A stretch of DNA of 64,000 bases from the NCBI GenBank assembly GCA_947499145.1, contig CANMNB010000008.1, positions 62,001 through 126,000 on the forward strand, given 5' to 3'. Of this stretch, positions 10,863 to 47,027 are shown in pieces. The position numbers were made by a program, and so were the translations under genes. Below the pieces are notes generated by a model that saw nothing but the letters and a program-made list of their open reading frames with translations, ran no database searches and was not told the origin of the DNA. The stretch is from an uncultured Arachnia sp. Lineage in GTDB: Bacteria; Actinomycetota; Actinomycetes; Propionibacteriales; Propionibacteriaceae. Each line of letters begins with the position of its first letter. Position 1 is the first letter of the stretch.

Positions 10863-11003
10863 CGCTCGCCGAGTAGCCGCCGCAGCGGCGTGTCGAGGCG
10901 GGGCCTTCTCCTCGCTCGCCGAGTAGCCGCCGCAGGCGGCGTGTCGAGGCGGGGCCTTCTACTCGCTCGCCGAGTAGCCGCCGCAGGCGGCGTGTCGAGG
11001 CGG
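10863..11003 (+). repeat. Cluster of three REP-like palindromes (cluster A)
   Basis: Three direct copies (about 10863-10900, 10913-10951, 10964-11003) repeat every 50-51 bp. Each reads CGCCGAGTAG, an inner stem CCGCC/GGCGG around GCA (in copy 1 the left G is lost), then CGTGTCGAGGCG. The outer CGCC/GGCG pair encloses the unit. The cluster lies upstream of both divergent genes, the LigD-type polymerase and nfeD. Together with the next two repeats it fills the 426-bp gene-free gap 10813-11238. Confidence 0.85.
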
Positions 11004-11024
11004 CATCGTCGCGACTGACGCTTG

Positions 11025-11066
11025 AGTGGGAGCCTTGGTGGCAAGCTCGCCACCACACCTCCCACT
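11025..11066. repeat. Palindrome of the AGTGGGAG family, copy 1
   Basis: AGTGGGAG (11025-11032) pairs with CTCCCACT (11059-11066), and TGGTGGC (11036-11042) pairs with GCCACCA (11049-11055), leaving a short loop. A near-identical and more perfect copy lies at 13028-13069 on the other side of the nfeD-SPFH pair. Confidence 0.8.
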
Positions 11067-11095
11067 GACGGGCTCGCGACGGCGCAGCGGGATCG

Positions 11096-11180
11096 TGTCC
11101 CGACACGGCCGCTGCGCGGCCCACTCGACTACCGACATGACCTTCGTTCGCCGAGTAGCCGCCTGCTCAACCACCGCGCC
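11096..11180. repeat. Divergent REP-like copy plus a half copy
   Basis: On the minus strand 11096-11136 reads GTCGAGTGG, inner stem GGCCGC/GCGGCC, then GTGTCGGGAC. This is the REP core with GTGG in place of GTAG and outer arms GTC/GAC. At 11146-11180 a left half (CGCCGAGTAG) runs directly into a type-II-like tail (CTCAACCACCG), a hybrid or decayed unit. Confidence 0.6.
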
Positions 11181-11238
11181 AGCGCCTTGTCAACGCGCGA
11201 CGTAGACTCGTGAGGACTACCGAATGGAGGTGGTCCCG

Positions 11239-11679
11239 GTGTGGTGGTGGCTGTTGTGGCTGGTCGTCGCGGTCGCGCTGGGGATCGCCGAGGTCTTCAC
11301 GCTGACGTTGGCGTTCGGCATCTTCAGCGGCGCAGCGTTGCTGGCCGCCGTCGCGGCCGGAGCCGGCGCTTCGTGGGTGGTGCAAGTGCTGACCTTCACC
11401 GTCGCCTCCGCGCTGGGGCTCCTCGTGATTCGGCCCATCTCGCGCCAGCACGCCAGGCAACCACCGCTCAGCCGCGACGGCACCGATGCGTTGGTCGGGA
11501 AGGCCGCCACCGTGCTGGAGGAGGTCACCGACGCGCAGGGCCTCGTCAGGCTCTCCGGCGAGACCTGGTCCGCCCGTTCGCTCGACGAGCAGCTCGTCAT
11601 CCCCGTCGGCGCCACCGTCGACGTCATGGAGATCCAGGGCGCCACCGCCATCGTGTACCCCCGCGAGCTACTGCCGTAA
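11239..11679 (+). CDS. NfeD-like membrane protein
   Basis: 146 residues from the preferred GTG at 11239, which has GGAGG 8 nt upstream. An ATG at 11224 would overlap that ribosome site. Two or three hydrophobic helices are followed by a soluble C-terminal OB-fold region (DALVGKAATVLEEV...GLVRLSGETWSARS), the pattern of NfeD proteins. NfeD proteins work with SPFH/stomatin partners in membrane-domain organisation and quality control. Its partner lies 17 bp downstream. Confidence 0.85.
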   Translation: MWWWLLWLVVAVALGIAEVFTLTLAFGIFSGAALLAAVAAGAGASWVVQVLTFTVASALGLLVIRPISRQHARQPPLSRDGTDALVGKAATVLEEVTDAQGLVRLSGETWSARSLDEQLVIPVGATVDVMEIQGATAIVYPRELLP

Positions 11680-11696
11680 CCGACCGAGGAGTCGAC

Positions 11697-12767
11697 ATGG
11701 ATTTCTTTCTCGTCCCCATCATCGCCGCGGCGATCCTGGTGGTGTTCCTGGTGATCATGATGGTGCGCATCGTGCCGCAGGCGCACCGCTTCAACGTCGA
11801 GCGCTTCGGCCGCTACCGCGTGACGCTCCAGCCCGGGCTGAACTTCATCATCCCGCTCGCCGACCGCGTCCGCGACAAGCTCGACATCCGCGAGCAGGTG
11901 TTCACCTCGACGCCGCAACCGGTGATCACAGAGGACAACCTCGTCGTCCACATCGACACGGTGCTCTACTACCAGATCACCGATCCCCGGGCCGCCGCCT
12001 ACGAAGTGGCCAACTACCTGCAGGCCATCGACCAGCTCACCGTCACGACGCTGAGAAACCTCATCGGCACCATGGACCTGGAGCGCACCCTGACGTCGCG
12101 GGAGGCCATCAACGCCCAGCTGCGCAGCGTGCTCGACGAGGCCACCGGCAAGTGGGGCATCCGGGTGAACCGGGTGGAGATCAAGGCCATCGACCCGCCC
12201 GGCACCATCAAGGAGGCGATGGAGAAGCAGATGCGTGCCGAGCGCGACAAGCGCGCGGCCATCCTGCACGCCGAGGGCGAACGACAGTCCCGGATCCTCA
12301 CCGCCGAGGGCACCCGGCAGCAGGAGATCCTGCTGGCCCAGGGTGAGCAGCAGGCCCGGATCCTGCGGGCCGACGGCGAGGCCCAGGCCATCGAGCGGGT
12401 GTTCCAGGCCGTCCACGCCAACGACGCCGACCCGAAACTCCTCGCGTACAAGTACCTCGAGACCTTGCCGGCTCTGGCCAACGGCGAGAACAGCACGTTC
12501 TTCGTGATCCCGGGCGAGTTCACCGAGGCGATCAGGACCGTGACCACGGCGTTCGGCGACCACTCGGAGTCCAAGCCCCGGCCGGAGCCCACCACGTCGC
12601 CCGACCACGCGGGGGCCGACGACACCCCGCAGCTGGGCCGGGACGAGGGTCCCCGGCAGCTCGAGTCGATGGGCTCCACCCAGGCGGCCGATGAGGCCGC
12701 GCGCAGTGCGGAGATCGCTGTGAGCGAGGCGAAGGCCGAGGCCAGAGCCGCGCAGGGTGGCGTGTAA
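11697..12767 (+). CDS. SPFH/band 7 (stomatin-like) membrane protein
   Basis: A 356-residue protein with one N-terminal helix (VPIIAAAILVVFLVIMM), then an SPFH domain (QAHRFNVERFGRYRVTLQPGL onward). A long helical region rich in Glu, Arg and Ala follows (ILHAEGERQSRIL and related repeats), typical of stomatin coiled coils. The tail is low in complexity and acidic, rich in Pro, Asp and Ala. It probably oligomerises at the membrane with the NfeD protein encoded just upstream. A strong hairpin terminator follows 97 bp after the stop. Confidence 0.9.
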   Translation: MDFFLVPIIAAAILVVFLVIMMVRIVPQAHRFNVERFGRYRVTLQPGLNFIIPLADRVRDKLDIREQVFTSTPQPVITEDNLVVHIDTVLYYQITDPRAAAYEVANYLQAIDQLTVTTLRNLIGTMDLERTLTSREAINAQLRSVLDEATGKWGIRVNRVEIKAIDPPGTIKEAMEKQMRAERDKRAAILHAEGERQSRILTAEGTRQQEILLAQGEQQARILRADGEAQAIERVFQAVHANDADPKLLAYKYLETLPALANGENSTFFVIPGEFTEAIRTVTTAFGDHSESKPRPEPTTSPDHAGADDTPQLGRDEGPRQLESMGSTQAADEAARSAEIAVSEAKAEARAAQGGV

Positions 12768-12864
12768 GCGACCCCACGCCGCGAGGTCGCGCCGCAAGCG
12801 GGACGCGCGGCCGCACCCCACGAGTTCGACCGCCACCAACCATCAGTAGTGACCGGCACGTACC

Positions 12865-12931
12865 CGAAAGGGGCCGGATCGGCGGAGGCAAGGACACTAT
12901 GTCCTCGGCTTCCTCGATCCGGCCCCTTTCG
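12865..12931 (+). terminator. Long perfect hairpin after the nfeD-SPFH operon
   Basis: A 17-bp perfect stem (12865-12881 with 12915-12931) containing GGGGCC closes a 33-nt loop that holds a second 5-bp stem (AGGAC/GTCCT). The right arm ends in CCCCTTTCG, giving a short pyrimidine run. It probably stops the nfeD-SPFH transcript and, being symmetrical, may also block convergent reads. It lies in the 471-bp gene-free gap 12768-13238, which otherwise holds repeats. Confidence 0.7.
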
Positions 12932-13027
12932 TGCACGCTCTGTCATGGGACGGCCGAACCCAGGGGGCTCACCACCAGCCACGACCAGGCGGCGCGACGG
13001 TGCACACGAGGCCGCGGACGCCACTCA

Positions 13028-13069
13028 AGTGGGAGCTTTGGTGGCGAGCTCGCGACCAAAGCTCCCACT
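13028..13069. repeat. Palindrome of the AGTGGGAG family, copy 2 (nearly perfect, 42 bp)
   Basis: The 15-bp arms AGTGGGAGCTTTGGT and ACCAAAGCTCCCACT are perfectly paired around a centre that is itself palindromic (GCGAGCTCGC). One G-G pair is the only mismatch in 21 positions. It shares both arms in shortened form with the copy at 11025-11066. Confidence 0.85.
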
Positions 13070-13099
13070 CAGTGCAGGTGCCGGAGCCGAGGCGACGTC

Positions 13100-13226
13100 G
13101 TTTCGACACGGCCGCTCCGCGGCCTACTCAACGACCGAATCCACGCACGCCGAGCAGCCGCCGCCAGGCGGCGTGTCGAGGCGACGTCGTTTCGACACGG
13201 CCGCTCCGCGGCCTACTCAACGACCG
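13100..13226. repeat. Cluster of three REP-like palindromes, two of a TCGTT/AACGA subtype (cluster B)
   Basis: Copies at 13100-13137 and 13189-13226 are identical. On the minus strand they read GTTGAGTAG, stem GGCCGC/GCGGCC, then GTGTCGAAAC, so the outer arms are TCGTT/AACGA. Between them, at 13146-13183, is a plus-strand CGCC/GGCG copy with GCAG in place of GTAG. The cluster sits between the convergent SPFH and M20 genes. Confidence 0.8.
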
Positions 13227-13238
13227 GGGGCGCCGCAA

Positions 13239-14570
13239 TCAACGACCGGCGAGGTTCTGCAGCAGCAGGGTCTCAGCCTGGATGGCGCGAGCGAGGTCGC
13301 CGAGGTTCAGGGACTCGTCGATCCCGTGCATGCGGGAGTCCGGGTCCGTGACGGCGGTGACCAGCACCGTCGCCCCCGGGTAGCGCTCGGCGAACTCGGC
13401 GACGATCGGGATGCTGCCGCCGCAGCCGATCTCGACGGCGTCGGTTCCGAAGGCGTCGCGGAAGGCGGCCCGGGCCGCCTCGGCGTGCGGACCGTCCAGT
13501 TCGATGGAGCTGGGTCCGCCGCGCTGCCCCGGCTCCACCTCGACGTGGGCCCCCCACGGCGCGTGTGCGACGAGGTGGTCGCGCAGCAGGCGCTCGGCCT
13601 CCTCGGGGTCCTGCCCCGGCGCCAGCCGGACGCTGACCTTGGCGGACGCCGTCGGGATGAGCGTGTTGGAGGCGTCGGCGACGCGGGTGGCGTCGATGGC
13701 CAGGACGGAGGCCGACGGCCGGTACCACATCTTCTCGACGGCGCTGCCGTCGCCGATCAGCTCCACGCCGTCGAGGACGCCGGTCTCCTCGCGGAGTCGG
13801 TCGAGCGGGTAGTCGAGCTCCGGGGCGGATCGGCTCACCAGTCCCTCGATGGCGACGTTGCCCGCGTCGTCGTGCAGGGTGGCGAGCAGTCGACACAGGG
13901 CGGTGAGCGCGTCCGGCACCACTCCGCCGAATTGTCCGGAGTGCAGACCGGCCTCCAGCGTCGAGACCGTCACCACGGCGTCGACGACCCCGCGCAGCGA
14001 CGTGGTGAGGCTGGGGACGCCGACGGTCCAGTTGATGGAGTCGGCGATCACGAAGACGTCCGCGGACAACTCGTCAGCGTGGCGGTCCAGCAGGGCCTCC
14101 ATCGACGGCGACCCGATCTCCTCCTCGCCCTCGATGAACAGCTTCACCCCCACGGGCGGGTTGCCGTCGAACGCGCGCAGTGCCCCCAGGTGGGCGGCGA
14201 TCCCGCCCTTGTCGTCCGCGGAGCCACGGGCGAACAGCCGGCCGTCGCGCTCCTCGGGGGTGAACGGCTCCGACGTCCACGCAGCCAGTTCGCCGGTGGG
14301 CTGCACGTCGTAGTGGGCGTAGAGCAGGGCCGTGGGCTTCCCGGGCGGGGCCGGGTAGTGGCCGTAGACGGCGGGCTTGCCCCCGGCTTCCAGGAGTCGC
14401 ACCTCCGGGCAGCGCGCGCCGCGCAGCAGTGCGGCGACGTGGTCCGCGCAGGCGCGGACGTCGGCGTCGTGCTCGGGCTGCGAGGAGATCGACGGGATGG
14501 CGATCAGCTCGTGCAGGTCGGCGATGACCGAGGGCAGCACGCCCTCGATGTCCCAGGCGAGATTGCTCAT
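13239..14570 (-). CDS. M20 family zinc dipeptidase/peptidase
   Basis: A 443-residue M20 (CNDP/PepV-like) metallopeptidase that cleaves dipeptides or acylated amino acids in the cytoplasm. The metal-binding and catalytic motifs appear in order: YAHYDVQP, GSADDKGG, FIEGEEEIGS, ADSINW, and a late MHGIDE histidine. The ATG at 14570 is followed by SNLAWDIEGVLP. Sequence further upstream is not coding in this frame. It is divergent from the LacI gene. Confidence 0.92.
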   Translation of the reverse strand: MSNLAWDIEGVLPSVIADLHELIAIPSISSQPEHDADVRACADHVAALLRGARCPEVRLLEAGGKPAVYGHYPAPPGKPTALLYAHYDVQPTGELAAWTSEPFTPEERDGRLFARGSADDKGGIAAHLGALRAFDGNPPVGVKLFIEGEEEIGSPSMEALLDRHADELSADVFVIADSINWTVGVPSLTTSLRGVVDAVVTVSTLEAGLHSGQFGGVVPDALTALCRLLATLHDDAGNVAIEGLVSRSAPELDYPLDRLREETGVLDGVELIGDGSAVEKMWYRPSASVLAIDATRVADASNTLIPTASAKVSVRLAPGQDPEEAERLLRDHLVAHAPWGAHVEVEPGQRGGPSSIELDGPHAEAARAAFRDAFGTDAVEIGCGGSIPIVAEFAERYPGATVLVTAVTDPDSRMHGIDESLNLGDLARAIQAETLLLQNLAGR

Positions 14571-14667
14571 GCCCCCCACCGTACCGATGAACACCTTGCT
14601 GCAACTTTTCGCCACCGGTTTGATAGCGTTGCACGAGCACCGAGGACACCGTGAGGGAGGGCGCACC

Positions 14668-15663
14668 GTGGCGCAGACACGCCGGACCAGGATGGCCGAC
14701 GTCGCCGAGCTCGCGGGCGTCTCCACCGCCACCGTCTCCCGAGTGCTGTCGGGCAAGCCCGGCGTGAAGGAGGACACGCGCGTCGCCGTGCTCAGCGCCA
14801 TGGAGGAGGCCGGCTACATCCGCGAGAAGGCGCCGTCGCGCCGCTCCGGGGTGGTGGCCATCGTCGTGCCGGAGCTCTCGAACCCCGCCTTCCCCGCGTT
14901 CGTCGAGGAACTCGACATCCTGCTCTTCGCCGCCGGCCAGCCGGTGGTCGTGTGCCCGGCGGGCTCGTCGGGCACCAGCGAGATGCACCACCTCGAGACG
15001 CTGCAGGACATGAACATCTCCGGCGTCATCTCGGTCTCCGGCACCCCGGCCGACAGCCAGGGCAGCAACGAGCACTACCAGCGGCTCATCGACTCCGGCG
15101 TCCCCACGGTCTTCGTCAACGGCTACTCCGCCGCCCTCAAGGGCGCCTTCTTCTCCTGCTCCGACGCCGAAGCCGTCACGGCGTCGGTGGCGCACCTGCG
15201 CTCGCTGGGACACCAGCGCATCGGACTCGCGATCGGGCCCGAGCGCTACCTGCCCACGCGACGCAAGATCGAGGCCTTCACCGCCCTCGGCTTCAAGCGG
15301 GACAGCATCGCGGCCACCATCTTCACTGCCGAGGGCGGCCAGCTCGCCGCCGCCCGCCTCATCGACTCCGACCACACCGCCATCGTCTGCGGCTCCGACC
15401 TCATGGCGCTGGGCGCCATCCGCGAGGCGCGCCGTCGCGGGATGTCCGTCCCGGGCGACCTGTCGGTCGTCGGCTACGACGACAGCCCGCTCATGGCGTT
15501 CACCGACCCGGCCCTGACCACCGTCCGGCAGCCGGTGCGGGCCATGTGCGAGGCGGCCGTCACCGCCCTCCTCGAGGCGCTCGAGGGCGCCGCGCTGGAC
15601 CGCTCCGAGATGCTGTTCCACCCTGACCTGATCATCCGACACTCGACAGGACCCGCTGCATGA
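14668..15663 (+). CDS. LacI-family transcriptional regulator
   Basis: 331 residues. The helix-turn-helix and hinge helix are MADVAELAGVSTATVSRVLSG at the N-terminus, followed by a periplasmic-binding-like sensor domain (GVVAIVVPELSNPAF through VVGYDDSPLMAFTDPALTTV). The start is a GTG with GAGGGAGG 7 nt upstream. It overlaps the alpha-glucosidase start by 4 nt, so it probably controls that operon in response to an alpha-glucoside. Upstream, TTGCTGCAA (14596-14604) and GTTGCA (14628-14633) are possible operator parts, unproven. Confidence 0.92.
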   Translation: MAQTRRTRMADVAELAGVSTATVSRVLSGKPGVKEDTRVAVLSAMEEAGYIREKAPSRRSGVVAIVVPELSNPAFPAFVEELDILLFAAGQPVVVCPAGSSGTSEMHHLETLQDMNISGVISVSGTPADSQGSNEHYQRLIDSGVPTVFVNGYSAALKGAFFSCSDAEAVTASVAHLRSLGHQRIGLAIGPERYLPTRRKIEAFTALGFKRDSIAATIFTAEGGQLAAARLIDSDHTAIVCGSDLMALGAIREARRRGMSVPGDLSVVGYDDSPLMAFTDPALTTVRQPVRAMCEAAVTALLEALEGAALDRSEMLFHPDLIIRHSTGPAA

Positions 15664-22923: not shown

Positions 22924-24183
22924 GTGTCCGAGATCGGCGTCCAGACCCCGCTCGTCCGGCGACGAGCACGCCCGCAGTCCGGATTGGGGCGCGACGGCAT
23001 CGGAGCACGCCAGGCCAGCCTCCGCCAGCGCAACCTCTCGCTCGTCCTGCGGCAGGTGCTCGCGTGCAGCGAGCCGCCGTCGCGCGCCGACGTCGCGGCC
23101 CTGACCGGCCTCACCCGCTCGACGGTGTCCCGGCTGGTGGACGAACTGATCGAGGGCCAGTTGCTCGCCGAACTCGAGGCCCAGGGCACCGGTCGCGCGG
23201 GCCGCCCGGCCCTGCCGCTGGTCCCCCGCGGCGGCCACCTCATGAGCCTCGGGCTCGAGCTGAACGTCTCGCACCTCAGCGTCTACCTGCTGGACTTCGC
23301 GGGCGACGTCGTGGCAGAACGCGTCGTCGACGGCGACTTCGCCAACTCGGACCCGGAGGCCGCCTTGGCGCTGGTCGCCCAGCACGCCCGCGAGGTGCTG
23401 GCCGAGGCGCCCCACGGACGGCTCGTCGCCTGCGGTCTCGCGCTACCCGGACTGGTGGACGTCGACCAGGGGATCCTGCTGCGCGCCCCCAACCTCGGCT
23501 GGTCCGGCGTCCCGGCCGCCGACATCCTCCGACGCCACCTCGCTCTGCCCGACGACGTCGTCGTCACGCTGGGCAACGAGGCGGACACCTCCGCCATCAC
23601 CGTCGCCATGGACGCCCCCGGCAGCCCGTCTGACATCAGCGGTTTCCTCTACATCTCCGGCGAGACCGGCATCGGCTCCTCCGCGGTCCTGAGTGGCGGA
23701 GTCATCGGGGGCCGGCACGGCTGGGCCGGCGAGTTGGGCCACGTGTGCGTGGACCCGGACGGCCTGCAATGTCGCTGCGGCGCCACCGGCTGCGTCGAGG
23801 CCTACGCGGGCGCCCGGGCACTGTGCCAGCACGCCGGGGTCGACGAGGTCGAGCAGCTGCGGGCCGCGGCCGAGGCCGGGGACGCCCACGCGCTGCGCGC
23901 CATCCGTCAGGCCGGCAGCGCCCTGGGGGTCGGAGTCTCCGCCGCGCTCAACCTGCTGGACCTGCCCGTCGTCGTTCTCGGCGGCCACCTCAGCCGGCTC
24001 GACAAGTGGGTGGTGCCGGAGCTCGAGGCCCAGTTGGCGTCGCGGCTACTGGCCTACGAGCTCGCGCCGCCGCAGGTGGTGATCGTCGACTCCGCGGTGA
24101 GCCGCGCGGCCCACGGCGCCGCGATCGCCGGTTTCGAGCCGGTCCTGGCCCATCCGGACCAGTTCCTCCACGCCGCCTCGTGA
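22924..24183 (+). CDS. xylR: ROK-family repressor of xylose genes (XylR-type)
   Basis: 419 residues. An N-terminal winged-helix DNA-binding domain (PSRADVAALTGLTRSTVSRLVDELIEGQLL) is followed by a ROK sugar-kinase-like domain with GGVIGGRHGWAGELGHV and the zinc motif CRCGATGCVEAYAG. ROK repressors of this layout beside xylA act as xylose-responsive repressors. The GTG at 22924 has a very strong AAGGAGGTGG 6 nt upstream. The gene is transcribed away from xylA, and its stop overlaps the GH95 start by 4 nt, linking it to the glycosidase genes. Confidence 0.88.
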   Translation: MSEIGVQTPLVRRRARPQSGLGRDGIGARQASLRQRNLSLVLRQVLACSEPPSRADVAALTGLTRSTVSRLVDELIEGQLLAELEAQGTGRAGRPALPLVPRGGHLMSLGLELNVSHLSVYLLDFAGDVVAERVVDGDFANSDPEAALALVAQHAREVLAEAPHGRLVACGLALPGLVDVDQGILLRAPNLGWSGVPAADILRRHLALPDDVVVTLGNEADTSAITVAMDAPGSPSDISGFLYISGETGIGSSAVLSGGVIGGRHGWAGELGHVCVDPDGLQCRCGATGCVEAYAGARALCQHAGVDEVEQLRAAAEAGDAHALRAIRQAGSALGVGVSAALNLLDLPVVVLGGHLSRLDKWVVPELEAQLASRLLAYELAPPQVVIVDSAVSRAAHGAAIAGFEPVLAHPDQFLHAAS

Positions 24184-26639
24184 GCGCCCGCCGACTGCTC
24201 TGGACCGCGCCGGCGTCGCGGTTCCATGACGGCATGCCGATCGGGACCGGGCGCCTGGGCGCGATGGGGCTGGGCCGCCCGGACGACGTCGACGTGTGGG
24301 TGCTGAACGAGGAGTCGTGCTGGTCGGGTGGCAACTACTCGACGCCGGGCGTGCCCGCGCATCCCGACCCGGCGGGCGAGTGGGAGGCGGCGGCCGAGGC
24401 CCTGCGCGCCGGCGACGTGGTGCGCGCCGAGGAGCATGTCCGCCACGTCCAGTTCGGGCACTCGCAGGCCTACCAGCCGCTCGTGACGCTGCGCGTCGCT
24501 TGGTCCGAGGCCTCCCCCGGGCTGGCGCGCCGCGAGCTGGACACGGCGGCCGGAGTGGTGACGTGGTCGACGCTGCCGGGGCGCGGCGAGCGGTCCTGCC
24601 TCGCCGTCGCCTGCGCGCCGCGAGAGGTGCTGGCCTTCCGCTACGACCTCGATGGCACCGTGGACCTCGACGTCCTCGTCGACTCCCCGCATCCTGACCT
24701 CGCCGCGGTGAGCACCGGCGATCCCCTCTCCCTGGCGCTCGAGGCGACGATGCCCTCCGACGTCGCGCCCGCCCACGACAATGCTGCCGACCCGGTGACC
24801 CGCGACGGCCGGGGCGTCCGCGCCCGCGTGGCCTTCCGGCTGGTGACCGACGGCGTGGTCGAGGTGGCGGCCGCACCCGGGGTCGGCTGGAGGATCACCG
24901 GCGCCCGCCGCGTCGAACTGTTCGCGGCCGCCGCCACGGACAACGACGGCCCGCTGAGACCGGTCGAGCCCGCGTGGCGCGAGCTCCCCGGTCAACGCGT
25001 GACCGTGGCCGCGGCGCTGGGCGTCGACGGCCTCCTGGCGGAGCAGACCGCGCACCGGGAGGAGCTGGTCTCCCGGCTGGTGCTGGATCTCCCCACCACG
25101 GACGCCGCCGTGTCCGAGCTGCTCGCCGCGGACCGTTCGCCGAGTAGCTCCGCAGACCGCACGCCGAGTACCCCCGCAGACCACACGCCGAGTACCCCCG
25201 GAGACCGTTCGCCGAGTACCCCCGGAGACCGTTCGCCGAGTAGCCCCCGCAGGGGGCGTGTCGAGGCGCCGCTGACCGCCGAGCTGGGCGCCCGCGCCGT
25301 CGAGCTGGCCCGCCACCTCATGCTGTCCTCATCGGCACCCGAGGGCCTGCCGATCCCGCTGCAGGGGCTGTGGAACGACGAGGTCCAGCCTCCGTGGAGC
25401 GCCAACTACACCCTCAACATCAACGCTGAGATGAACTACTGGCCCGCCCTGCCCCTCGGGCTGGGCGAGCACATCGAGCCACTCGTCGCGCTCACCCGCG
25501 CCGTCGCGTCCACGGGCGAGGCCACCGCCCGCGACGTGCTCCGGGCGCCCGGCTGGGCGGCGTTCCACAACACCGACGCCTGGGGCTTCTCCCGCCCGGT
25601 CGGCGACGGCACCGCGCTGCCCTGCTGGACCGTGTGGCCGATGGCCGGTCCGTGGCTGCTGCTGACGCTGTGGGACCGCTTCGAGTACACCCTCGACGCC
25701 GAGTGGCTGGCGGAGGCCTGGCTGCCGCTGGCCGAGGGCGCCGTCCGCCACGCGCTGGCACGGCTGGAGCCACATCCGGACGGCTCGCTGGTCACCGTGC
25801 CCGCGTCCTCCCCGGAGAACCAGTACCTGCTGCCCGACGGCACGTCCGCGGCCATCGCCGTCGGCTCGACGATGGACGACTCCCTCCTCCGCGGGCTGTT
25901 CGAGGCGTGGCTGGCCGCCCACCGTGTGCTGGACGCCGAGCACGAGACCCTCGAGCAGGTCCGCGACGCGCTGCCCCGGATCCCGTGGCCCGACGTCGCC
26001 GCGGGCGAGCCCTACCCCGAGTGGCGGGAGCCCGTCGCCGACGCCGAACCCGAGCACCGGCACGTCAGCCACCTCGTCGACTTCTACCCCCTGCAGGGTG
26101 CGCTCGCCCGCCCCGACGCCGACCTCCGCCGCGCCGCGGCACTCGAGACGCTTCGACGACGCGGTCCCGACAGCACCGGCTGGGCCCTGGCCTGGCGCGT
26201 CTGCCTGGCCGCGCGCCTCCGGGACGGCGAGGCCGTCGAGCGCTACCTGGCCCGCTACTTCACCCCGAGCGGCGACGAGGGGCTGGGCGGGGTCTACGAC
26301 TCGCTGCTCTGCGCGCACCCGCCGTTCCAGATCGACGGCAACTTCGGCGTCGCCGCCGGCATCCTGGAGAGCCTGGTGCAGTCCCGCCTGGTGCCCGGAC
26401 CCGCCTGGCCGGCCGAGGTCGAGGTGCATCTGCTGCCTGCGCTGCCGCCCAGTTGGGTCGAGGGCAGCGTGCGCGGCGTGCACTGCCGAGGCGGACTGGT
26501 GGTGGACGTCGCGTGGGTCGACGGCGAGGTCGCGGAGGCCACGATCCACGCGACCCACGACGTCGCGGTGAGCGTGCACGTGCCGGGTCAGGCCGTCCGG
26601 CGCGTGGCGCTTCGGGCCGGTACTTCCTCCCGCGTGTGA
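24180..26639 (+). CDS. GH95 alpha-L-fucosidase with an in-frame REP insertion
   Basis: 819 residues. The N-terminal beta-sandwich (FHDGMPIGTGRLGAMGLG) is followed by an alpha/alpha barrel with GH95 blocks LQGLWNDEVQPPWSANYTLN, EMNYWPALP, EHRHVSHLVDFYP and HPPFQIDGNFG. The family includes 1,2-alpha-L-fucosidases and some alpha-L-galactosidases. No signal peptide is seen, so it acts on imported oligosaccharides. Residues about 318-363 are low-complexity Ser/Pro/Asp/Thr (units such as DRSPSTPG) encoded by a REP palindrome and its tandem left halves, at the junction between the two domains. It is translationally coupled to xylR (GTGA) and followed by GH42 and GH31. Confidence 0.88.
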   Translation: MSARRLLWTAPASRFHDGMPIGTGRLGAMGLGRPDDVDVWVLNEESCWSGGNYSTPGVPAHPDPAGEWEAAAEALRAGDVVRAEEHVRHVQFGHSQAYQPLVTLRVAWSEASPGLARRELDTAAGVVTWSTLPGRGERSCLAVACAPREVLAFRYDLDGTVDLDVLVDSPHPDLAAVSTGDPLSLALEATMPSDVAPAHDNAADPVTRDGRGVRARVAFRLVTDGVVEVAAAPGVGWRITGARRVELFAAAATDNDGPLRPVEPAWRELPGQRVTVAAALGVDGLLAEQTAHREELVSRLVLDLPTTDAAVSELLAADRSPSSSADRTPSTPADHTPSTPGDRSPSTPGDRSPSSPRRGRVEAPLTAELGARAVELARHLMLSSSAPEGLPIPLQGLWNDEVQPPWSANYTLNINAEMNYWPALPLGLGEHIEPLVALTRAVASTGEATARDVLRAPGWAAFHNTDAWGFSRPVGDGTALPCWTVWPMAGPWLLLTLWDRFEYTLDAEWLAEAWLPLAEGAVRHALARLEPHPDGSLVTVPASSPENQYLLPDGTSAAIAVGSTMDDSLLRGLFEAWLAAHRVLDAEHETLEQVRDALPRIPWPDVAAGEPYPEWREPVADAEPEHRHVSHLVDFYPLQGALARPDADLRRAAALETLRRRGPDSTGWALAWRVCLAARLRDGEAVERYLARYFTPSGDEGLGGVYDSLLCAHPPFQIDGNFGVAAGILESLVQSRLVPGPAWPAEVEVHLLPALPPSWVEGSVRGVHCRGGLVVDVAWVDGEVAEATIHATHDVAVSVHVPGQAVRRVALRAGTSSRV
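25131..25268 (+). repeat. REP-like palindrome with a 24-bp tandem expansion inside the GH95 gene (G)
   Basis: Four 24-bp units (25131, 25155, 25179, 25203), each GACC-NNNN-GCCGAGTA plus a C-rich tail, precede a complete palindrome at 25230-25268: CGCCGAGTAG, stem CCCCC/GGGGG around GCA, CGTGTCGAGGCG. The length keeps the reading frame, and the TAG within GAGTAG is out of frame. The translated units are DRSPSSSA, DRTPSTPA, DHTPSTPG and DRSPSTPG. Confidence 0.9.
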
Positions 26640-30942: not shown

Positions 30943-30969
30943 GGCGCCTCCCACTCATCGAGACAACGG

Positions 30970-31098
30970 TCCCCGAGTAGGCCGCGAAGCGGCCGTGTCG
31001 AGGGGTCGGTATGGAACGCCTCGACACGCCGCCTCCGGCGGCTACTCGGCGAGCGTAGGGCCTCGACACGCCGCCTTCGGCGGCTACTCGGCGAGCGT
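30970..31098. repeat. Cluster of three REP-like palindromes (cluster C)
   Basis: Copy 30970-31005 is on the plus strand with outer arms CCCC/GGGG and inner stem GGCCGC/GCGGCC. Copies 31017-31055 and 31060-31098 are inverted, with CGCC/GGCG outer arms and CCGCC/GGCGG stems around TCC or TTC. The cluster fills the gap between convergent GH31 and purL. Confidence 0.85.
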
Positions 31099-39542: not shown

Positions 39543-39564
39543 TCGTATGGGCGAGAGTCTGGGC

Positions 39565-39600
39565 GATCGCCGAGTAGCGACGCAGGCGCGTGTCGAGGCG
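39565..39600 (+). repeat. Single REP-like copy (D)
   Basis: CGCCGAGTAG is followed by a shortened, imperfect inner stem (GCG/CGC around ACGCAGG) and GTGTCGAGGCG. The outer CGCC/GGCG arms and core are conserved while the inner hairpin is degraded. Confidence 0.7.
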
Positions 39601-39612
39601 CCGCGCCGGGGC

Positions 39613-39679
39613 CACAATTCTGCGTATACGTGCCGATGTGCGCACATGCAGGACATCGGCACGCATGCGCAGATTTGTG
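39613..39679. repeat. Long inverted repeat (27-bp arms) between subtilase and purQ
   Basis: Arms 39613-39639 and 39653-39679 match at 24 of 27 positions around a 13-nt loop. The perfect part includes ACATCGGCACG and its complement. It is AT-richer than its surroundings and lies between convergent genes, so it could be a bidirectional terminator or a remnant of a mobile element. It is not related in sequence to the REP copies. Confidence 0.8.
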
Positions 39680-39745
39680 TCCCGATTCTGGCAGGCCCCT
39701 ACCGCCACCCTGCTCGACAACGCGGTGGGCTGGCTCGCGGGCTGA

Positions 39746-40659: not shown

Positions 40660-40735
40660 GGCACGGATCCTAGCTGACTCGCTTGGGAAGTCAGGATCGT
40701 GGTCAGAGGCCTGACCGACGGCGCACGCTCAGCGA

Positions 40736-40924
40736 CGCCTCGACACGCGGCCTGCGGCCGCTACTCGGCGATCGAGATGCCGGAACCGCTCCCCGAGTAG
40801 GGCGCGCAGCGCCCGTGTCGAGGGGAGGGTCGCCACGCCTCGACACGCCGCCTTGCGGCGGCTACTCGGCGATCAGGGGTGGCGGCGCCTCGACACGCGG
40901 CCTTCGGCCGCTACTCGGCGATCG
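40736..40924. repeat. Cluster of four REP-like palindromes (cluster E)
   Basis: Copies at 40736-40774, 40836-40874 and 40886-40924 are in minus orientation, with CGCC/GGCG outer arms and inner stems GCGGCC/GGCCGC, CCGCC/GGCGG and GCGGCC/GGCCGC. The copy at 40789-40825 is in plus orientation with CCCC/GGGG arms and GGGCGC/GCGCCC. The last copy touches the stop codon of the pabC-like gene at 40925. Confidence 0.9.
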
Positions 40925-41767
40925 TCACGGGGTCAGCAGGTCCGTCAGCGCGGCGTCGAGTGGCGACGTGGGGAGCGCGACGTCGTCGGCGTGGGTGATG
41001 CGCGCGATGATCCGGCCGCTGGAGAGCAGCCACGCGCCGCGGGAGGCGACCAGGTCGTCGCGGTGCAGGGGCCGGACGTCGACGTCGAGGCCGGCGCCCG
41101 GCGCCTTCTCAAGCATCTCGGCAACCGTGATGGAGCGGAGGATTCCGTCCAGCGGCGGGGTGACCAGTACGCCGTCGAGGTCGAGCACGACGCTGGAGGT
41201 GGGCCCCTCGAGGAGCGCGCCGGACGGGGAGACGAAGACGACGTCGTCGGCGCCGTGCGCCTTCGCGTGGCGCTTGGCGGCCATGTTGATGCCGTAGCTC
41301 AGCGACTTCGCACCGGGCAGCAGCCAGGGCAGGTCGACGACGTCCCCGCCCTCCCAGCCGCGGTTCAGCAGCATCACCTTGACGCCCTCGGCGCGCTCGC
41401 GGCGGATGGCGTCGTCGATGGGCAGCGCGGTCACCCAGCCGTGCGTCTCGTCGCCGCCCTCGGGTCCGCGGGTGTGGACCAGCCGCAGCACGGCCTCGGG
41501 ATCGGCGTCCCAGTCCCAGGCGGCCAGGATGGCGTCGACGGCGCGGCGATAGCCGGCCTCGTCGGGAGCCGGCAGCTGCAGCAGCCCGGCGGAGGCAGCG
41601 AGGCGCTCGAGGTGAGCGTCGAGGTAGTGCGCCCGCCCGGCCTTGGCGAGGGTGGCGTCGAAGACCCCGTCGCCGCGCATCACGCCCTGGTCGTCGGCCC
41701 GGACGATCGGCTGGGAGGGATCGACGACGGTGCCGTCGAGGAGCGCGACGAGGCGGATGGCGGTCAT
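40925..41767 (-). CDS. Class-IV aminotransferase, aminodeoxychorismate lyase-like
   Basis: A 280-residue PLP fold-type IV enzyme. The start IRLVALLDGTVVDPSQPIVRADDQGVMRGDGVFDA, the lysine block PGAKSLSYGINMAAKRHAK and VFVSPSGALLEGPTSS fit PabC or branched-chain/D-amino-acid aminotransferase-like proteins. PabC would make 4-aminobenzoate for folate, which would fit a purine-linked one-carbon context, but the family cannot be split safely by eye. Its start overlaps the purC stop by 4 nt. Confidence 0.82.
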   Translation of the reverse strand: MTAIRLVALLDGTVVDPSQPIVRADDQGVMRGDGVFDATLAKAGRAHYLDAHLERLAASAGLLQLPAPDEAGYRRAVDAILAAWDWDADPEAVLRLVHTRGPEGGDETHGWVTALPIDDAIRRERAEGVKVMLLNRGWEGGDVVDLPWLLPGAKSLSYGINMAAKRHAKAHGADDVVFVSPSGALLEGPTSSVVLDLDGVLVTPPLDGILRSITVAEMLEKAPGAGLDVDVRPLHRDDLVASRGAWLLSSGRIIARITHADDVALPTSPLDAALTDLLTP

Positions 41768-42657: not shown

Positions 42658-42704
42658 GGCGGCATCGTAGGCTCGCCGGCGCGGCGGCCAGTAGCATCGG
42701 CGCC

Positions 42705-43922
42705 ATGGTGGAACGACCCCTCCCCGACGGCTGGTTGCGCTACGACGCCGCCCTCGCCGCGGTGCTGGCCGTTGTGGGCGCCGCGATGGCGTGGCTGACC
42801 GACACCGCCGGCGTCGGGGTCTTCGACCAGGACGTGCGCCTCCAGATGCTGGGCTCGGCCCTGCTGGCGATCCCGCTGGTGTGGCGGCGGCGGTTCCCCA
42901 TCGCGATGGCGCTCGTCCAGTCGGCGCTCTACATCGCGCTCCCCTACGTCACGGGCATGGACCTCTACTCCTCGCAGGTGGTGCTGTTCCTCGGCTTCTA
43001 CAGCATCGGCGCTTGGTCGGCCCGACGCGGCTGGGCGCTGGTCAGCCGCATCGTGATCAGCGTCGCCATGGCCGTGTGGCTGGTCAGCAGCATCTTCGGC
43101 GGGCCCATGTTCGGCGGCGAGGGGCCGGAGGCCATGACCGCCACCCAGATCATGGCGATCTTCGCGATCAACGGCAGTATCAACATCGCCTTCTTCGCCG
43201 GGGCGTGGGTCTTCGGCAACCGCGCCTGGCAGCAGGCGCTGGAGCGGCGCGAGCTCGAACAGGCCGGGCAGGAGATCCGCGGCCTGCAGGCCGAAATCGT
43301 CGCCCACGCCGTCGAGAACGAGCGGCTGCGGATCGCCCGCGAGCTGCACGACGTCGTCGCGCACCACGTGACCGCCATGTCCGTGCAGGCCGCTGCGGCC
43401 CGGCGGGTGCTCTCCAGCGACCCGGCCCGGGCCGAGGCGTCGCTGAAGGCCGTGGAGTCCAGCGCGCGGTCCGCCGTCGCCGACCTGCGCACGATGGTCA
43501 CGACCCTGCGCTCCGCGGACGAGACCGAGTCCCTGCCCACCCTCGACGACGTCGCCGCGCTCGTCGAGGAGGCCCGGGGCGCCGGACGGAGCGTGACGTA
43601 CGAGCGGATCGGCGAGATTCCCGAGCTCACGCCCGCCACCGAGCTCACGCTGTACCGGGTGGCGCAGGAGGGGCTCACCAACGTCCACAAGCACGCCGGC
43701 GCCGCCGCCCACGTGGCGCTCCGGCTCCGCGGCACCCGCGACGGCGTGGAGCTGGAGGTCTCCGACGACGGCCAGGGCTCCACCTCGGCGCTGCCCGGCA
43801 CCGGCACCGGCCTGACCGGGATGCGGGAGCGGATCGCGGCCGTCGGCGGCACCCTGGAGGCCGGCCCCAAGCCCCGCGGCGGCTTCCTCGTCCGCGCGGC
43901 CATCCCGGTGGGTGCGGCGTGA
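42705..43922 (+). CDS. NarL-type sensor histidine kinase
   Basis: 405 residues. The N-terminal half has about five hydrophobic helices and little extracellular sequence, suggesting membrane-stress or lipid sensing. A coiled linker leads to the HisKA_3 dimerisation domain with His215 in ARELHDVVAHHVTAM, then an HATPase domain with VAQEGLTNVHKHAG and GTGTGLTGMRERI. It phosphorylates the response regulator encoded next, whose GTG overlaps its stop. Confidence 0.93.
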   Translation: MVERPLPDGWLRYDAALAAVLAVVGAAMAWLTDTAGVGVFDQDVRLQMLGSALLAIPLVWRRRFPIAMALVQSALYIALPYVTGMDLYSSQVVLFLGFYSIGAWSARRGWALVSRIVISVAMAVWLVSSIFGGPMFGGEGPEAMTATQIMAIFAINGSINIAFFAGAWVFGNRAWQQALERRELEQAGQEIRGLQAEIVAHAVENERLRIARELHDVVAHHVTAMSVQAAAARRVLSSDPARAEASLKAVESSARSAVADLRTMVTTLRSADETESLPTLDDVAALVEEARGAGRSVTYERIGEIPELTPATELTLYRVAQEGLTNVHKHAGAAAHVALRLRGTRDGVELEVSDDGQGSTSALPGTGTGLTGMRERIAAVGGTLEAGPKPRGGFLVRAAIPVGAA

Positions 43923-44575
43923 TCCGCGTGCTGCTGGTGGACGACCAGGCCCTCATCCGGACCGGCTTCACCACCATCCTCGAGAGCGAGCCGGACATCG
44001 AGGTGGTCGGCCAGGCCGCCAACGGCCTCGACGGCGTCCGCCTGGCGGCCGAGCTGCGGCCCGACGTCGTGTGCATGGACGTGCAGATGCCGGTGATGGA
44101 CGGCATCGAGGCCACCCGCCGCATCACCGCCGACGGGACCCCGACGTCGGTGCTGATCCTCACGACGTTCGACCGCGACGACTTCCTCTTCGAGACCCTC
44201 GACGCCGGCGCGTCGGGCTTCCTGCTGAAGACCGCCGAGGCGGAGGAGCTGATCGAGGCCGTGCAGGTCCTGGGCCGCGGCGACGCCCTGCTCTCCCCCC
44301 AGGTGACCCGCCGGGTGATCGAGCGCTTCACCGCCGCCCGGCCCGCCCCGGTGCGCGGCCGGAGCGTCGAGCAGCTGACCGAGCGGGAGTGCGACACCCT
44401 CCAGTGGCTGGCGCGCGGCCTCAGCAACGCCGAGATCGCCGCCCAGATGCACGTCAGCCCGGAGACGGTGAAGTCGCACGTCTCCAGCATCCTCATGAAG
44501 CTGGGTCTCCGCGACCGCATCAACGCCGTCATCTGGGCCTACGAGCAGGGTCTGGTCTCACCCGGGTCGCACTGA
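43919..44575 (+). CDS. NarL/LuxR-type response regulator
   Basis: 218 residues. The receiver domain has acceptor Asp54 (VVCMDVQMPVMDG), Thr in LILTTFDRD and Lys in FLLKTAEAEE. The C-terminal LuxR helix-turn-helix is LTERECDTLQWLARGLSNAEIAAQMHVSPETVKSHV. It is coupled to the kinase gene (GTGA overlap) and followed by a palindromic region and an ABC exporter, which is its probable target. Confidence 0.94.
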   Translation: MIRVLLVDDQALIRTGFTTILESEPDIEVVGQAANGLDGVRLAAELRPDVVCMDVQMPVMDGIEATRRITADGTPTSVLILTTFDRDDFLFETLDAGASGFLLKTAEAEELIEAVQVLGRGDALLSPQVTRRVIERFTAARPAPVRGRSVEQLTERECDTLQWLARGLSNAEIAAQMHVSPETVKSHVSSILMKLGLRDRINAVIWAYEQGLVSPGSH

Positions 44576-44631
44576 CTCCCCCGCACGGGGGAGGTCGCGA
44601 TTTCCCCCGCACGCGGGACGCGCACCGGGGG
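44576..44631. promoter_or_regulatory. Repeated CCCCCGCACG palindromes upstream of the ABC exporter
   Basis: Directly after the regulator stop, CTCCCCCG-CA-CGGGGGAG (44576-44593) is an 8-bp-arm palindrome. A second copy, TCCCCCGCACGCGGGA, is centred 26 bp downstream, and a weaker GCGCACCGGGGG follows. The 79-bp gap leads to the ABC ATPase ATG. These may be binding sites for the adjacent regulator. The first could instead act as a terminator. Confidence 0.5.
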
Positions 44632-44654
44632 CGGTTCTCCGTAGCCTCAATGGC

Positions 44655-45536
44655 ATGATCAGCGTCCAGAACGTCCACCGGTTCTTCGGGGACAAGCACG
44701 TCCTCAAGGACATCAGCTTCGACATCCGGCCCGGGCTCATGACCGGCTTCGTCGGCGGCAACGGCGCGGGCAAGACCACCACGATGCGCATCATCCTGGG
44801 AGTCCTGGCCGCCAACGAGGGCCGGGTGCTCGTCGACGGGAAGCCGATCTCCACCGACTACCGCGCCAACATCGGCTACATGCCGGAGGAACGCGGGCTG
44901 TACCCGAAGATGAAGGTCATCGACCAGCTCGTCTACCTAGGCCAGCTGCACGGCATGAGCGCCGCCGACGCGAAGCAGCGCAGCCTCGAGCTGCTGGACC
45001 GGCTGGGCCTGGTGGGCAAGCCGACGGACACGCTGGAGTCGCTGTCGCTGGGCAACCAGCAGCGCGCCCAGATCGCCGCCGCTCTCGTGCACCGCCCGGC
45101 CGCGCTGATCCTTGACGAGCCGTTCTCCGGTCTCGACCCCACCGCCGTCGACGCCACCGTCGCCGTCCTGCGCGACGTCGCCGCCACCGGCGCCCCGGTG
45201 CTGTTCTCCTCCCACCAGCTCGACCTGGTGGAGCGGCTCTGCGACGAGCTGGTCATCATCGCCGAGGGCGAGATCCGCGCCAACGGCACCCGCGAGCAGC
45301 TCCTGGCGGCCGGCAGCACCGGCGAGTGGGAGATGACGGCGTCGGCCGACACGGGCTGGGTGCGCGACAACGGCGTGCAGGTGCTGGAGTTCGACGGCGG
45401 CTACGTGCGCTTCACCGCGCCCACCGAGCAGCAGGCCAACTCCGTCCTGACCGCCGCGCTGGCCCGCGGCACGGTAAAGAGCTTCGGCCCCGTGCAGCGC
45501 TCGCTGCACGAGATCTACAAGGAGGTCACCCAGTGA
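44655..45536 (+). CDS. ABC transporter ATP-binding protein
   Basis: 293 residues. Walker A is GGNGAGKTTTMR, the signature is LSLGNQQRAQIAAAL (LSLGN, a common exporter variant), and Walker B is LILDEPFSGLDP, with the H-loop at LFSSHQLDLVE. A C-terminal domain of about 70 residues (from EWEMTASADTGWV) is typical of NatA/DrrA-like exporters. It pairs with the permease, whose GTG overlaps its stop. Confidence 0.93.
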   Translation: MISVQNVHRFFGDKHVLKDISFDIRPGLMTGFVGGNGAGKTTTMRIILGVLAANEGRVLVDGKPISTDYRANIGYMPEERGLYPKMKVIDQLVYLGQLHGMSAADAKQRSLELLDRLGLVGKPTDTLESLSLGNQQRAQIAAALVHRPAALILDEPFSGLDPTAVDATVAVLRDVAATGAPVLFSSHQLDLVERLCDELVIIAEGEIRANGTREQLLAAGSTGEWEMTASADTGWVRDNGVQVLEFDGGYVRFTAPTEQQANSVLTAALARGTVKSFGPVQRSLHEIYKEVTQ

Positions 45537-46636
45537 TTACCCCGCGCCCCCCGTTCTGGAACTCCGTCGGCATCGTCGCGCAGCGGGAGATCCGCGCCCG
45601 CATCCTGTCGAAGTCCTTCCTGATCTCCACGCTCATCACGCTGGTGGTGATCCTCCTGGTGATGGTGCTGATGCCGCGGATGGAGGACTTCTTCGGCGGC
45701 GGCCCCGACACCGTGGCCGTGGTGGGCGAGGCTCAGGGCGTCGTCGAATCGTTGGGCGGTGACGAGGAGATCCTCGTCCTGGCCGACGACGCCGCCGCCC
45801 GCGACGCCGTGCTCTCCGAGGAGGCCGACGTCGCCGTCGTCCCCGACCCCAGCAACCCGATCGGGGTGAAGCTCTACACGCTCGACGAGCTGCCCAGCTC
45901 GTGGATCCAGATGCTCTCGGTCTCCCCGACGGTGGAGATGCTCGACACCGAGGCCGCCAACCCCGGCGTGCTGTACATCATCGCGCTGGGCTTCGGGATC
46001 GTGTGGATGATGTCGGCCATCACGTTCGGCATGAGCATCGCGAACTCCGTGGTGGAGGAGAAGCAGACCCGCATCGTGGAGATCCTGCTGGCCACCGTCT
46101 CCGCCCGGGCCCTGCTGACGGGCAAGATCGTCGGCAACTCGCTTGCAGCGCTGGTGCAGATCGCGCTCATCGTGGGCACGGTGTTCCTCGGGATGGCGAT
46201 CAACGGCGACCAGCTGCCCACGATGAACCTCACCGCCCCGATCCTGTGGTTCGTGGTGCTGTTCCTAGTGGGCTTCGTGATGGTGGCGTCGCTGTATGCC
46301 GCCGCGGCCGCGCTGGTCTCCCGCCCGGAGGACCTGGCCAACGTGCAGCAGCCGATCATGTGGCTGGTGATGCTCCCCTACTTCGGCATCATCTTCGCCT
46401 TCAACAACCCGTTCGCGCTGACGGTGATGAGCTACATCCCGTTCTCCGCCCCCGTGGCCGTGCCGCTGCGGGTGTTCACGGGCGAGCAGGCGTTCTGGGA
46501 GCCCTTCGCCTCCCTGGGCATCCTGTTCGCCACCACGATGCTGATCATCTGGTTCGCGGCGCGGATCTACGAGAACGCCCTGCTGCGCACCGGCAAGCCA
46601 GTGAAGTGGCGGGAAGCCCTGCAGACCTCGGCCTGA
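45533..46636 (+). CDS. ABC-2 type permease (NatB-like)
   Basis: 367 residues. One N-terminal helix (SFLISTLITLVVILLVMVL) is followed by an extracellular domain of about 90 residues and then a group of five helices beginning VLYIIALGFGIVWMMSAITFG. The motif VEEKQTRIVEILLATVSARALLTGKIVG is diagnostic for NatB/ABC2_membrane_3 exporters. It forms an efflux or stress-response exporter with the upstream ATPase, probably controlled by the two-component system. Confidence 0.9.
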   Translation: MITPRPPFWNSVGIVAQREIRARILSKSFLISTLITLVVILLVMVLMPRMEDFFGGGPDTVAVVGEAQGVVESLGGDEEILVLADDAAARDAVLSEEADVAVVPDPSNPIGVKLYTLDELPSSWIQMLSVSPTVEMLDTEAANPGVLYIIALGFGIVWMMSAITFGMSIANSVVEEKQTRIVEILLATVSARALLTGKIVGNSLAALVQIALIVGTVFLGMAINGDQLPTMNLTAPILWFVVLFLVGFVMVASLYAAAAALVSRPEDLANVQQPIMWLVMLPYFGIIFAFNNPFALTVMSYIPFSAPVAVPLRVFTGEQAFWEPFASLGILFATTMLIIWFAARIYENALLRTGKPVKWREALQTSA

Positions 46637-47027
46637 TGTCGGCGGTCCTGCAGCCGGTCACCGAGTAGCCGCCGAAGGCGGCGTGCCGAGGTGGGACGGA
46701 ACGATCACCGAGTAGCCGCCGTGAGGCGGCGTGTCGAGGTGGGACCAACGATCACCGAGTAGCCGCCGTGAGGCGGCGTGTCGAGGTGCATCTGACCCGA
46801 CGCCGAATGCCGCGCGATGAATGGGTAAGCGCCTCGCGCTGGGAGATCGAGAAGTGAGTCCGCTTTCTCGACCTCTCACCCAACAGCTAAGGTGATCCTT
46901 GAAAATCGCCGTGGCATCCGGTGCCACAAGCACTTTCGCGGTGATATTCATCAGTTGGCCGAATTGCATGAGCGAGCGGATATATGGACCAAGTGTTGAT
47001 CGAGCGCGACATCACCGAGGCGCAGCG
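46637..47027. other. Gene-free region before the glycan island
   Basis: 391 bp with no credible gene. The first part holds the REP cluster F. The rest (46800-47027) is visibly AT-richer than the flanking genes. GATATA (46979-46984) with TTGGCC 18 bp upstream is a weak promoter candidate for the aminotransferase gene. This looks like the left boundary and regulatory region of the island. Confidence 0.5.
46657..46788 (+). repeat. Cluster of three REP-like palindromes with CACC/GGTG arms (cluster F)
   Basis: Direct copies at 46657-46693, 46703-46741 and 46750-46788 (period 46-47 bp) read TCACCGAGTAG, stem GCCGCC/GGCGGC around GAA or GTGA, and GTGTCGAGGTG (GTGCCGAGGTG in the first). The outer arms are CACC/GGTG, different from the CGCC/GGCG copies but still complementary. 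The second and third copies are identical, so the duplication is recent. Confidence 0.88.

Follow-up and report, generated by a model that had tools for sequence, protein, structure and literature searches.

We analyzed a 64,000-nucleotide stretch of the genome of an uncultured Arachnia sp. (GCA_947499145.1, contig CANMNB010000008.1, positions 62,001 to 126,000; hereafter the window, or G000:C8:62001-126000, where G000 is our handle for the genome, treated here as that of a Tessaracoccus). It contains a family of short hairpin elements that, in relatives of this organism, bracket genes for proteins with a DUF222 domain followed by an HNH nuclease domain, and that may be served by such proteins. 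A covariance-model search detected 20 copies at 8 places in the window; the original prediction, which had described this recurring two-stem family, listed at least 18 copies in nine places. The pattern GAGTAGN{3,30}GTGTCGA had 17 exact matches in the window versus a mean of 0.04 in shuffled sequences (largest value 1, 100 shuffles), and the constant core GAGTAG...GTGTCGA noticed earlier is thus beyond chance. At gathering scores, Rfam models matched nothing but two tRNAs in the window.

The genome-wide search with a two-stem covariance model proposed in the original prediction detected at least 125 copies (E ≤ 0.1) in all 2,880,921 bases of the genome; the number is a lower bound because scoring covered 150 of the 7210 first-look candidates. 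The exact pattern had 81 matches genome-wide versus 7 for a reversed control, and the covariance model of the genome-wide search was built from 74 of these 81 copies. The 125 copies formed 61 dispersed clusters of 1 to 7 members, in which close neighbors mostly alternated in orientation (27 +-, 21 -+, 11 ++ and 5 --); tandem arrays had a period of 47–51 bp. Contig C8, which holds the window, carried 52 of the 125 copies on 11.8% of the assembly, and this crowding is perhaps the result of local hopping.

In the consensus, CGNT is followed by a 4-bp outer arm and GAGTA; next come an inner stem, which a G-C pair closes, a short loop, GTGTCGA and the second outer arm. CGNT is conserved directly outside the outer arm, and CGNTC precedes 67 of the 74 copies. 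The outer arms occurred as paired variants (CGCC/GGCG in 34 of the 74 copies, CCCC/GGGG in 12, CATC/GATG in 5, CGTT/AACG in 5 and CACC/GGTG in 4). On these 74 of the 81 exact copies, a covariation test of both stems showed standard pairs in 96.8% of pair cells versus 70.3% after shuffling, double changes in 159 versus 55 cells, and a covariation score of 0.603 versus 0.163 (no more than 0.147 when slid), in agreement with the covariation of inner and outer stems claimed in the original prediction. The outer arms paired in 96.1% of cells and the inner stem in 97.3%, the latter being doubly changed at 5 of its 6 pairs. For 126 matches collected across genera, of which 119 were distinct, the score was 0.511 versus 0.138 and the outer arms paired in 99.2% of cells; across the 119 distinct rows GAG and TCGA were near invariant while the arms covaried. 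One-sided (wobble) changes were few, 10 versus 159 double changes in the own copies and 8 versus 227 in the cross-genus set, and this rarity hints at DNA rather than RNA pairing.

The apical loop was C-GNA-G in 58 of the 74 own copies; of the 109 cross-genus copies that were parsed, 63 had it as well. Triloops of the GNA type have a special stability in DNA. An apical loop of the type CGAG-GNA-CGAG, a mini-repeat of the GAG...CGA loop, occurred in 8 of the 109 parsed copies and was observed at L134, L147 and L166 (Microterricola) and at many Tessaracoccus loci. In genome G054 (L057, L085, L115-L122), two element sizes were seen, with a 27-nt core and with a 48-nt core that has a long inner hairpin. 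Predicted folding energies of five single copies were ordinary (z -0.3 to -1.9), and therefore the case for the structure rests on covariation and not on stability. The invariant bases of the internal loop GAG/CGA may form tandem sheared G.A pairs; folding predicts canonical GA/TC pairs as the alternative.

Table 1. Copies of the hairpin element in the window (CM, covariance model)
Feature	Position in window	Strand	Evidence
Element copy, CGCC/GGCG arms	10862..10901	+	CM match, exact core
Element copy, tandem, period ~50	10912..10952	+	Exact core, CM match
Element copy, tandem	10963..11003	+	Exact core, CM match
Degenerate element copy, GAGTGG..GTGTCGG	11095..11135	-	CM match, E 1.2e-4
Element copy, CGTT/AACG arms	13098..13138	-	Exact core, CM match
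Element copy flanked by two inverted ones	13143..13184	+	CM match
Element copy, CGTT/AACG arms	13187..13227	-	Exact core, CM match
Element copy within called gene 24180-26639	25229..25269	+	Exact core, CM match, gene calls
Element copy, CCCC/GGGG arms, convergent pair with 31016..31056	30966..31006	+	Exact core, CM match
Element copy, CGCC/GGCG arms	31016..31056	-	Exact core, CM match
Element copy	31058..31098	-	Exact core, CM match
Single element copy between convergent genes; corresponding site of 29 other Tessaracoccus genomes free of elements within 350 bp	39563..39601	+	Exact core, CM match, congener site comparison
Element copy, GCGGCC inner stem	40735..40775	-	Exact core, CM match
Element copy, GGGCGC inner stem, CCCC/GGGG arms	40786..40826	+	Exact core, CM match
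Element copy	40835..40876	-	Exact core, CM match
Element copy	40885..40925	-	Exact core, CM match
Element copy, first of three tandem, CACC/GGTG arms	46654..46694	+	CM match
Element copy, tandem	46701..46742	+	Exact core, CM match
Element copy, tandem	46748..46789	+	Exact core, CM match
Element copy within called gene, beyond the range of the original prediction	62832..62870	-	Exact core, CM match, gene calls

The gene at 24180-26639, glycoside-hydrolase-like by eye, keeps its frame open across the element that it contains. No elements were present at 48000-56000, where the GC content is 0.56-0.63 versus approximately 0.70 around it; from 48.2 to 56.0 kb the codon-trained caller calls no genes despite open frames, and 48000-56000 is perhaps acquired DNA.

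Occurrence of the elements in related genomes

A covariance model designated R1 had a match in 18 of 147 genomes of the taxonomic family. The hairpin family extends to Nocardioidaceae and Microbacteriaceae, where CGNT, GAGTAG and GTGTCGA are constant and the paired arms change. A narrower subtype was present in at least 111 stretches, from Tessaracoccus, Arachnia, Nocardioides, Aeromicrobium, many Microbacteriaceae and a few other organisms, and was also matched by one viral contig; its matches in Pseudomonas and Kitasatospora had no inner stem by eye. At E ≤ 1e-4, a broader model (R2), with matches counted up to 16 per genome, found elements in 40 of the 394 genomes sampled from the class; 32 of these had at least three matches (designated element-rich). 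The 394-genome samples used here and for Y1 transposases below were taken as identical on the basis of matching handles.

One site was compared in congeners. G000 holds five copies at a purQ/purS-like site (named by eye), all of which were recovered by R2 in the site scan as a positive control. Of 39 genomes searched, 37 matched this site and 30 loci were fetched; in the 29 other Tessaracoccus genomes no element was detected within 350 bp on either side (the contig of L294 has ~250 bp on one side). In the wider neighborhood of the site, copies were found ~1 kb away in G009 and a weak copy ~0.6 kb away in G021. The copies at the tested site are lineage-specific.

DUF222-HNH genes and their flanking elements

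The DUF222 domain (Pfam PF02720, 'REP13E12' family) was detected in 31 of the 32 element-rich genomes, but its presence alone proves little because 273 of the 394 sampled genomes carry it, and it was the flanking test that decided. In this test, 100 DUF222 loci of 12 genomes and 37 control stretches were all scanned with R2, and element matches were counted to E ~0.001 (three weaker ones, including one in a control, were dropped). The 100 loci were drawn from a larger number of DUF222 matches in 14 genomes, some of which were two halves of one gene; gene starts were those chosen by us.

Within 1 kb of the DUF222 domain, 80 upstream elements were gene-oriented versus 9 in the opposite orientation, while all 15 downstream elements were opposite and none was in the gene orientation. 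When the nearest element per locus was considered, 33 of 36 upstream elements were gene-oriented and 12 of 12 downstream elements were opposite. Altogether, 39 of the 100 loci were flanked, 9 of them on both sides. Loci with an upstream element in either orientation were found in G054 (8/11), G393 (9/11), G311 (8/16), G032 (5/15), the Tessaracoccus genome G016 (3/7), G548 (2/8) and G413 (1/18), and none was found at the DUF222 loci of G000 (2), G161 (2), G174 (5), G438 (4) and G090 (1). The orientation pattern differed (Fisher 8e-6 and 1.5e-5) from that of ordinary genes, for which 85 upstream elements were gene-oriented and 74 opposite, and 185 downstream elements gene-oriented and 115 opposite; this control set still contained 7 DUF222-like genes. 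In G311, G054, G032 and G393 taken together, 32 of 53 DUF222 loci were flanked within 1 kb versus 6 of 37 controls with any element (3e-5); a seventh control stretch has an element at E 0.009. A model-free element finder agreed (40:3 upstream, 0:7 downstream). In addition, the 1332 genes near elements include 7 DUF222-like genes, masked by our gene clustering, and these belong to loci that had been chosen by their elements; 5 of them had an element within 1 kb, and the nearest upstream one was gene-oriented in 5 of 5. A search for the HNH motif among the 1332 element-near proteins had found none, the motif being too strict.

Several loci illustrate the arrangement. At L426 of G054 an element ends ~38 bp upstream of the gene, and an inverted element follows ~6 bp downstream; at L424 of the same genome elements lie 93 bp upstream and 49 bp downstream. 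At L059 of G096 the upstream element is 119 bp from the gene and the inverted downstream element 10 bp. At the Tessaracoccus locus L508 (G016), a degenerate copy precedes the gene by ~148 bp, and a group of three inverted copies begins ~15 bp past the stop. Multicopy units were also found: G311 has 10 dispersed copies, 81-89% identical, of which 7 share a sharp right end, and ten unit copies in G393 diverge just past the stop codon. The right end of the G311 units (L391-L401) consists of a CCCCGC..GCGGGG hairpin followed by GGCACGT or GGCATGT (7/10) and then by unrelated DNA.

The proteins of L425 and L514 match both DUF222 and HNH; those of L401, L454 and L508 match, at E ≤ 0.01, DUF222 alone and have HNH-like residues by eye. 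Six DUF222 proteins had no match in PADLOC. On a DUF222 tree the flanked label changed 14 times versus 29.8 when shuffled, and flanked proteins occurred in several branches; the link to the elements is clustered, yet spans more than one branch. G000 itself has an intact DUF222-HNH gene (C7:4619-5989, 457 amino acids), whose product (L402) matches the Pfam models of DUF222 at 2.6e-33 and HNH at 3.6e-5 and shares 39-42% identity with proteins L423-L430 of G054, as well as a second DUF222 gene (C4:180069-180919) that is broken into two pieces.

Because elements bracket DUF222-HNH genes in an oriented fashion, these proteins are the best candidate movers. With moderate confidence, we interpret the elements as non-autonomous hairpins, similar to repetitive extragenic palindromic (REP) sequences, and a DUF222-HNH nuclease as the enzyme that serves them. 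It is in relatives that the bracketing was observed; neither DUF222 gene of G000 has an element within ~2.5 kb, so that the partner of the window's copies is proposed from the relatives. A unit with elements on its flanks might be concealed by a gap in the G000 assembly, since elements lie within 350 bp of an end of contigs C17, C19 and C24. Besides the lack of nearby elements in G000, several other observations weigh against this interpretation. Elements were detected in 40 of 394 genomes although 273 have DUF222, and G292, one of the 32 element-rich genomes, has no DUF222 at E ≤ 1e-5. Two further genomes with many elements, Tessaracoccus sp. OS52 (G174) and T. rhinocerotis (G161), have 0/5 and 0/2 DUF222 loci flanked within 1 kb. 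The multicopy units are not independent of each other; elements are found on their upstream side only in G393 and G311, the unit copies L397 and L456 have no near elements, and those of L399 are 1.8 kb off. Among the seven DUF222-like genes of element-chosen loci, the nearest downstream element was opposite in 2 of 3 cases and in the same orientation once (L122). Finally, the congener sites of the purQ/purS-like comparison are 80-86% identical, too diverged to place the junctions precisely, and neither a target duplication nor an exact empty site was seen.

Some of these observations would also be expected if DUF222-HNH units were guests that insert beside element arrays in a fixed orientation while another factor spreads the elements; some insertion sequences are known to target REPs. 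This main rival could account for the one-sided elements of G393 and G311, for the sharp right end of their units, which is not an element, for G000, G161 and G174, genomes with many elements in which no DUF222 gene has one within 1 kb, and for L122. However, guests should leave the array on both sides and in either order, whereas the set of 100 DUF222-chosen loci had 15 opposite and 0 same-orientation elements downstream within 1 kb, and no recurrent transposase-like gene was seen near elements in the 40 of 50 gene clusters inspected. We consider the guest scenario unlikely.

Gene context of the elements

Using our own gene caller, we placed 22 of the 61 G000 clusters between convergent genes, 24 between tandem and 10 between divergent genes (56 classified as intergenic), 2 within genes and 3 at contig edges. 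By eye, the neighbors of all 61 clusters included nothing transposase-like, and clustering of the 1332 genes from 172 loci around elements revealed no transposase-like family in the 40 of 50 clusters inspected.

This context raises the possibility that the elements are RNA or host sites under selection, such as terminators, mRNA ends or nucleoid/supercoiling sites, and that the vicinity of DUF222 genes is incidental. Copies near stop codons are consistent with such a role, as are the clusters that lie between convergent genes (22 of the 56 classified) and the orientation of the nearest downstream element of ordinary genes in several genomes, which followed the gene in 185 of 300 cases (p 6e-5 if independent). 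The last observation also counts against service by DUF222-HNH proteins: the excess is mild (49/81 in G000 alone, p 0.07), but a pure DNA reading leaves it unexplained, and no explanation considered here covers it. Upstream of ordinary genes there was no excess (85/159 gene-oriented). On the other hand, single copies between tandem genes in G000 were 8 sense and 6 antisense, wobble intermediates are few, the tested site is element-free in 29 congeners, and presence is patchy, with R1 matches in 18 of 147 genomes of the family. That the elements act as RNA or host sites appears improbable.

Replication slippage combined with gene conversion, with no enzyme involved, could produce tandem arrays with a 47-51 bp period and the concentration of 52 of 125 copies on 11.8% of the assembly. 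This process would have to account as well for 61 dispersed clusters, for a CGNT flank and loop that are constant across genera, and for the oriented bracketing of one gene family, and we regard it as very improbable.

Relation to known repeats and a possible mechanism

The elements share many features with GTAG REPs, which together with genes for REP-associated tyrosine transposases (RAYTs) form REPtrons (Di Nocera 2013, PMC3733652; Nunvar 2010, PMC2817692; compared here on the basis of excerpts). Both are short GC-rich hairpins with GTAG at the foot, paired stem changes, high copy number and extragenic location, and both form opposite-orientation dimers and, in some genomes, bracket a gene with inverted copies. 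Our elements have the 6-13 bp hairpin, short loop and paired stem variation of GTAG REPs, and are likewise high in copy number, mostly extragenic and present as inverted dimers (125 copies, 61 clusters, 2 within genes). A REPtron-like bracketing of one gene family by inverted copies was found for DUF222-HNH genes in relatives and was not found in G000. The original prediction took GTAG just 5' of a hairpin as the hallmark of RAYT-bound REPs. In contrast to the unpaired terminal tag of GTAG REPs, GTAG is enclosed here by an outer covarying stem together with the constant GTGTCGA. The words Actinobacteria, Streptomyces, Mycobacterium and Propionibacterium are absent from the main text of PMC3733652, and the elements described here are actinobacterial.

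Moreover, unlike GTAG REPs with a RAYT, no Y1 gene was found here, and the bracketed gene codes for DUF222-HNH. PF01797 (Y1) had no match in G000, in which assembly gaps remain, and the one weak NF047646 match (E 0.0115) lies within a NERD/helicase-like open reading frame by eye and was rejected as a RAYT. PF01797 was present in 64 of the 394 sampled genomes, and none of the 32 element-rich genomes was among them (chance 0.003, kinship ignored); one genome, G336, had Y1 plus a single weak element match. Thus, the Y1/HUH gene flanked by elements that the original prediction had anticipated was not detected, an outcome that it had itself named as a refutation, and its REP-like reading holds for the high-copy, structure-defined family with two covarying stems and alternating orientation, but not for membership in the RAYT-served GTAG REP class, which we reject because the transposase was looked for and not found and the tag is not terminal. 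That the elements are classical GTAG REPs moved by a RAYT is hardly credible, in spite of GTAG directly 5' of a GC-rich hairpin, alternating orientation and high copy number, given that Y1 is absent from 11 of 11 element-bearing and 32 of 32 element-rich genomes and that 30 fetched actinobacterial Y1 loci contained no element (R2 at E ≤ 0.05).

CGTC REPs, which have no dedicated transposase according to excerpts of PMC3733652, are also REP-like and often form inverted dimers. In that account they have a terminal CGTC and an 8-9 bp stem starting with AT pairs, whereas our elements have a CGNT flank, GC-rich stems and a candidate gene partner. As for this partner, excerpts of PMC13061034 and PMC10589994 describe REP13E12/DUF222 proteins as mostly having HNH, multicopy and dispersed, and mycobacterial REP13E12 regions as having no defined biological function according to a 2026 preprint; the candidate partner has the same order of DUF222 followed by HNH. 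In the excerpts of the REP13E12/DUF222 literature available under Creative Commons (CC) licenses in PubMed Central (PMC), no link to palindromic elements was found, and the CC-licensed PMC literature yielded no description of this hairpin family. The ends of IS200/IS605 insertion sequences are subterminal hairpins with a conserved 5' flank. The elements resemble them in being hairpins with such a flank and would differ in having, in place of a Y1 gene, an HNH nuclease as candidate partner.

If DUF222-HNH proteins serve the elements, each element would fold as single-stranded DNA into two stacked stems around the constant GAGTA / GTGTCGA loop, and a trans-acting protein would read this internal loop and the CGNT flank, leaving the paired arms free to change. 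The protein is likely the DUF222-HNH nuclease, which may recognize and nick the hairpin. By analogy with REPs around RAYT genes, the elements would be the inverted terminal repeats of DUF222-HNH genes in relatives, and the intact G000 gene at C7:4619-5989 may serve the window's copies in trans; mobilization in this genome by DUF222-HNH is what the arrangement in relatives suggests. We further propose, tentatively, that DUF222-HNH proteins could represent a novel type of transposase. In this scenario, an HNH nuclease that reads DNA with a helical part would cut at folded single-stranded hairpin ends (GAGTAG / GTGTCGA, CGNT), mobilize the gene that encodes it between inverted hairpins and also disperse, in trans, hairpins without a gene by the hundreds, forming a REPtron that evolved independently of RAYTs.

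For repeats of the REP type that RAYTs do not serve, CGTC REPs among them, no mover is known so far. The oriented bracketing joins two questions, the mover of REP-like elements and the role of DUF222, both of which could be tested with one protein and one oligonucleotide. In Nocardioides, Tessaracoccus and Microbacteriaceae, the hairpin family would, in addition, be a marker of recent changes in the genome.

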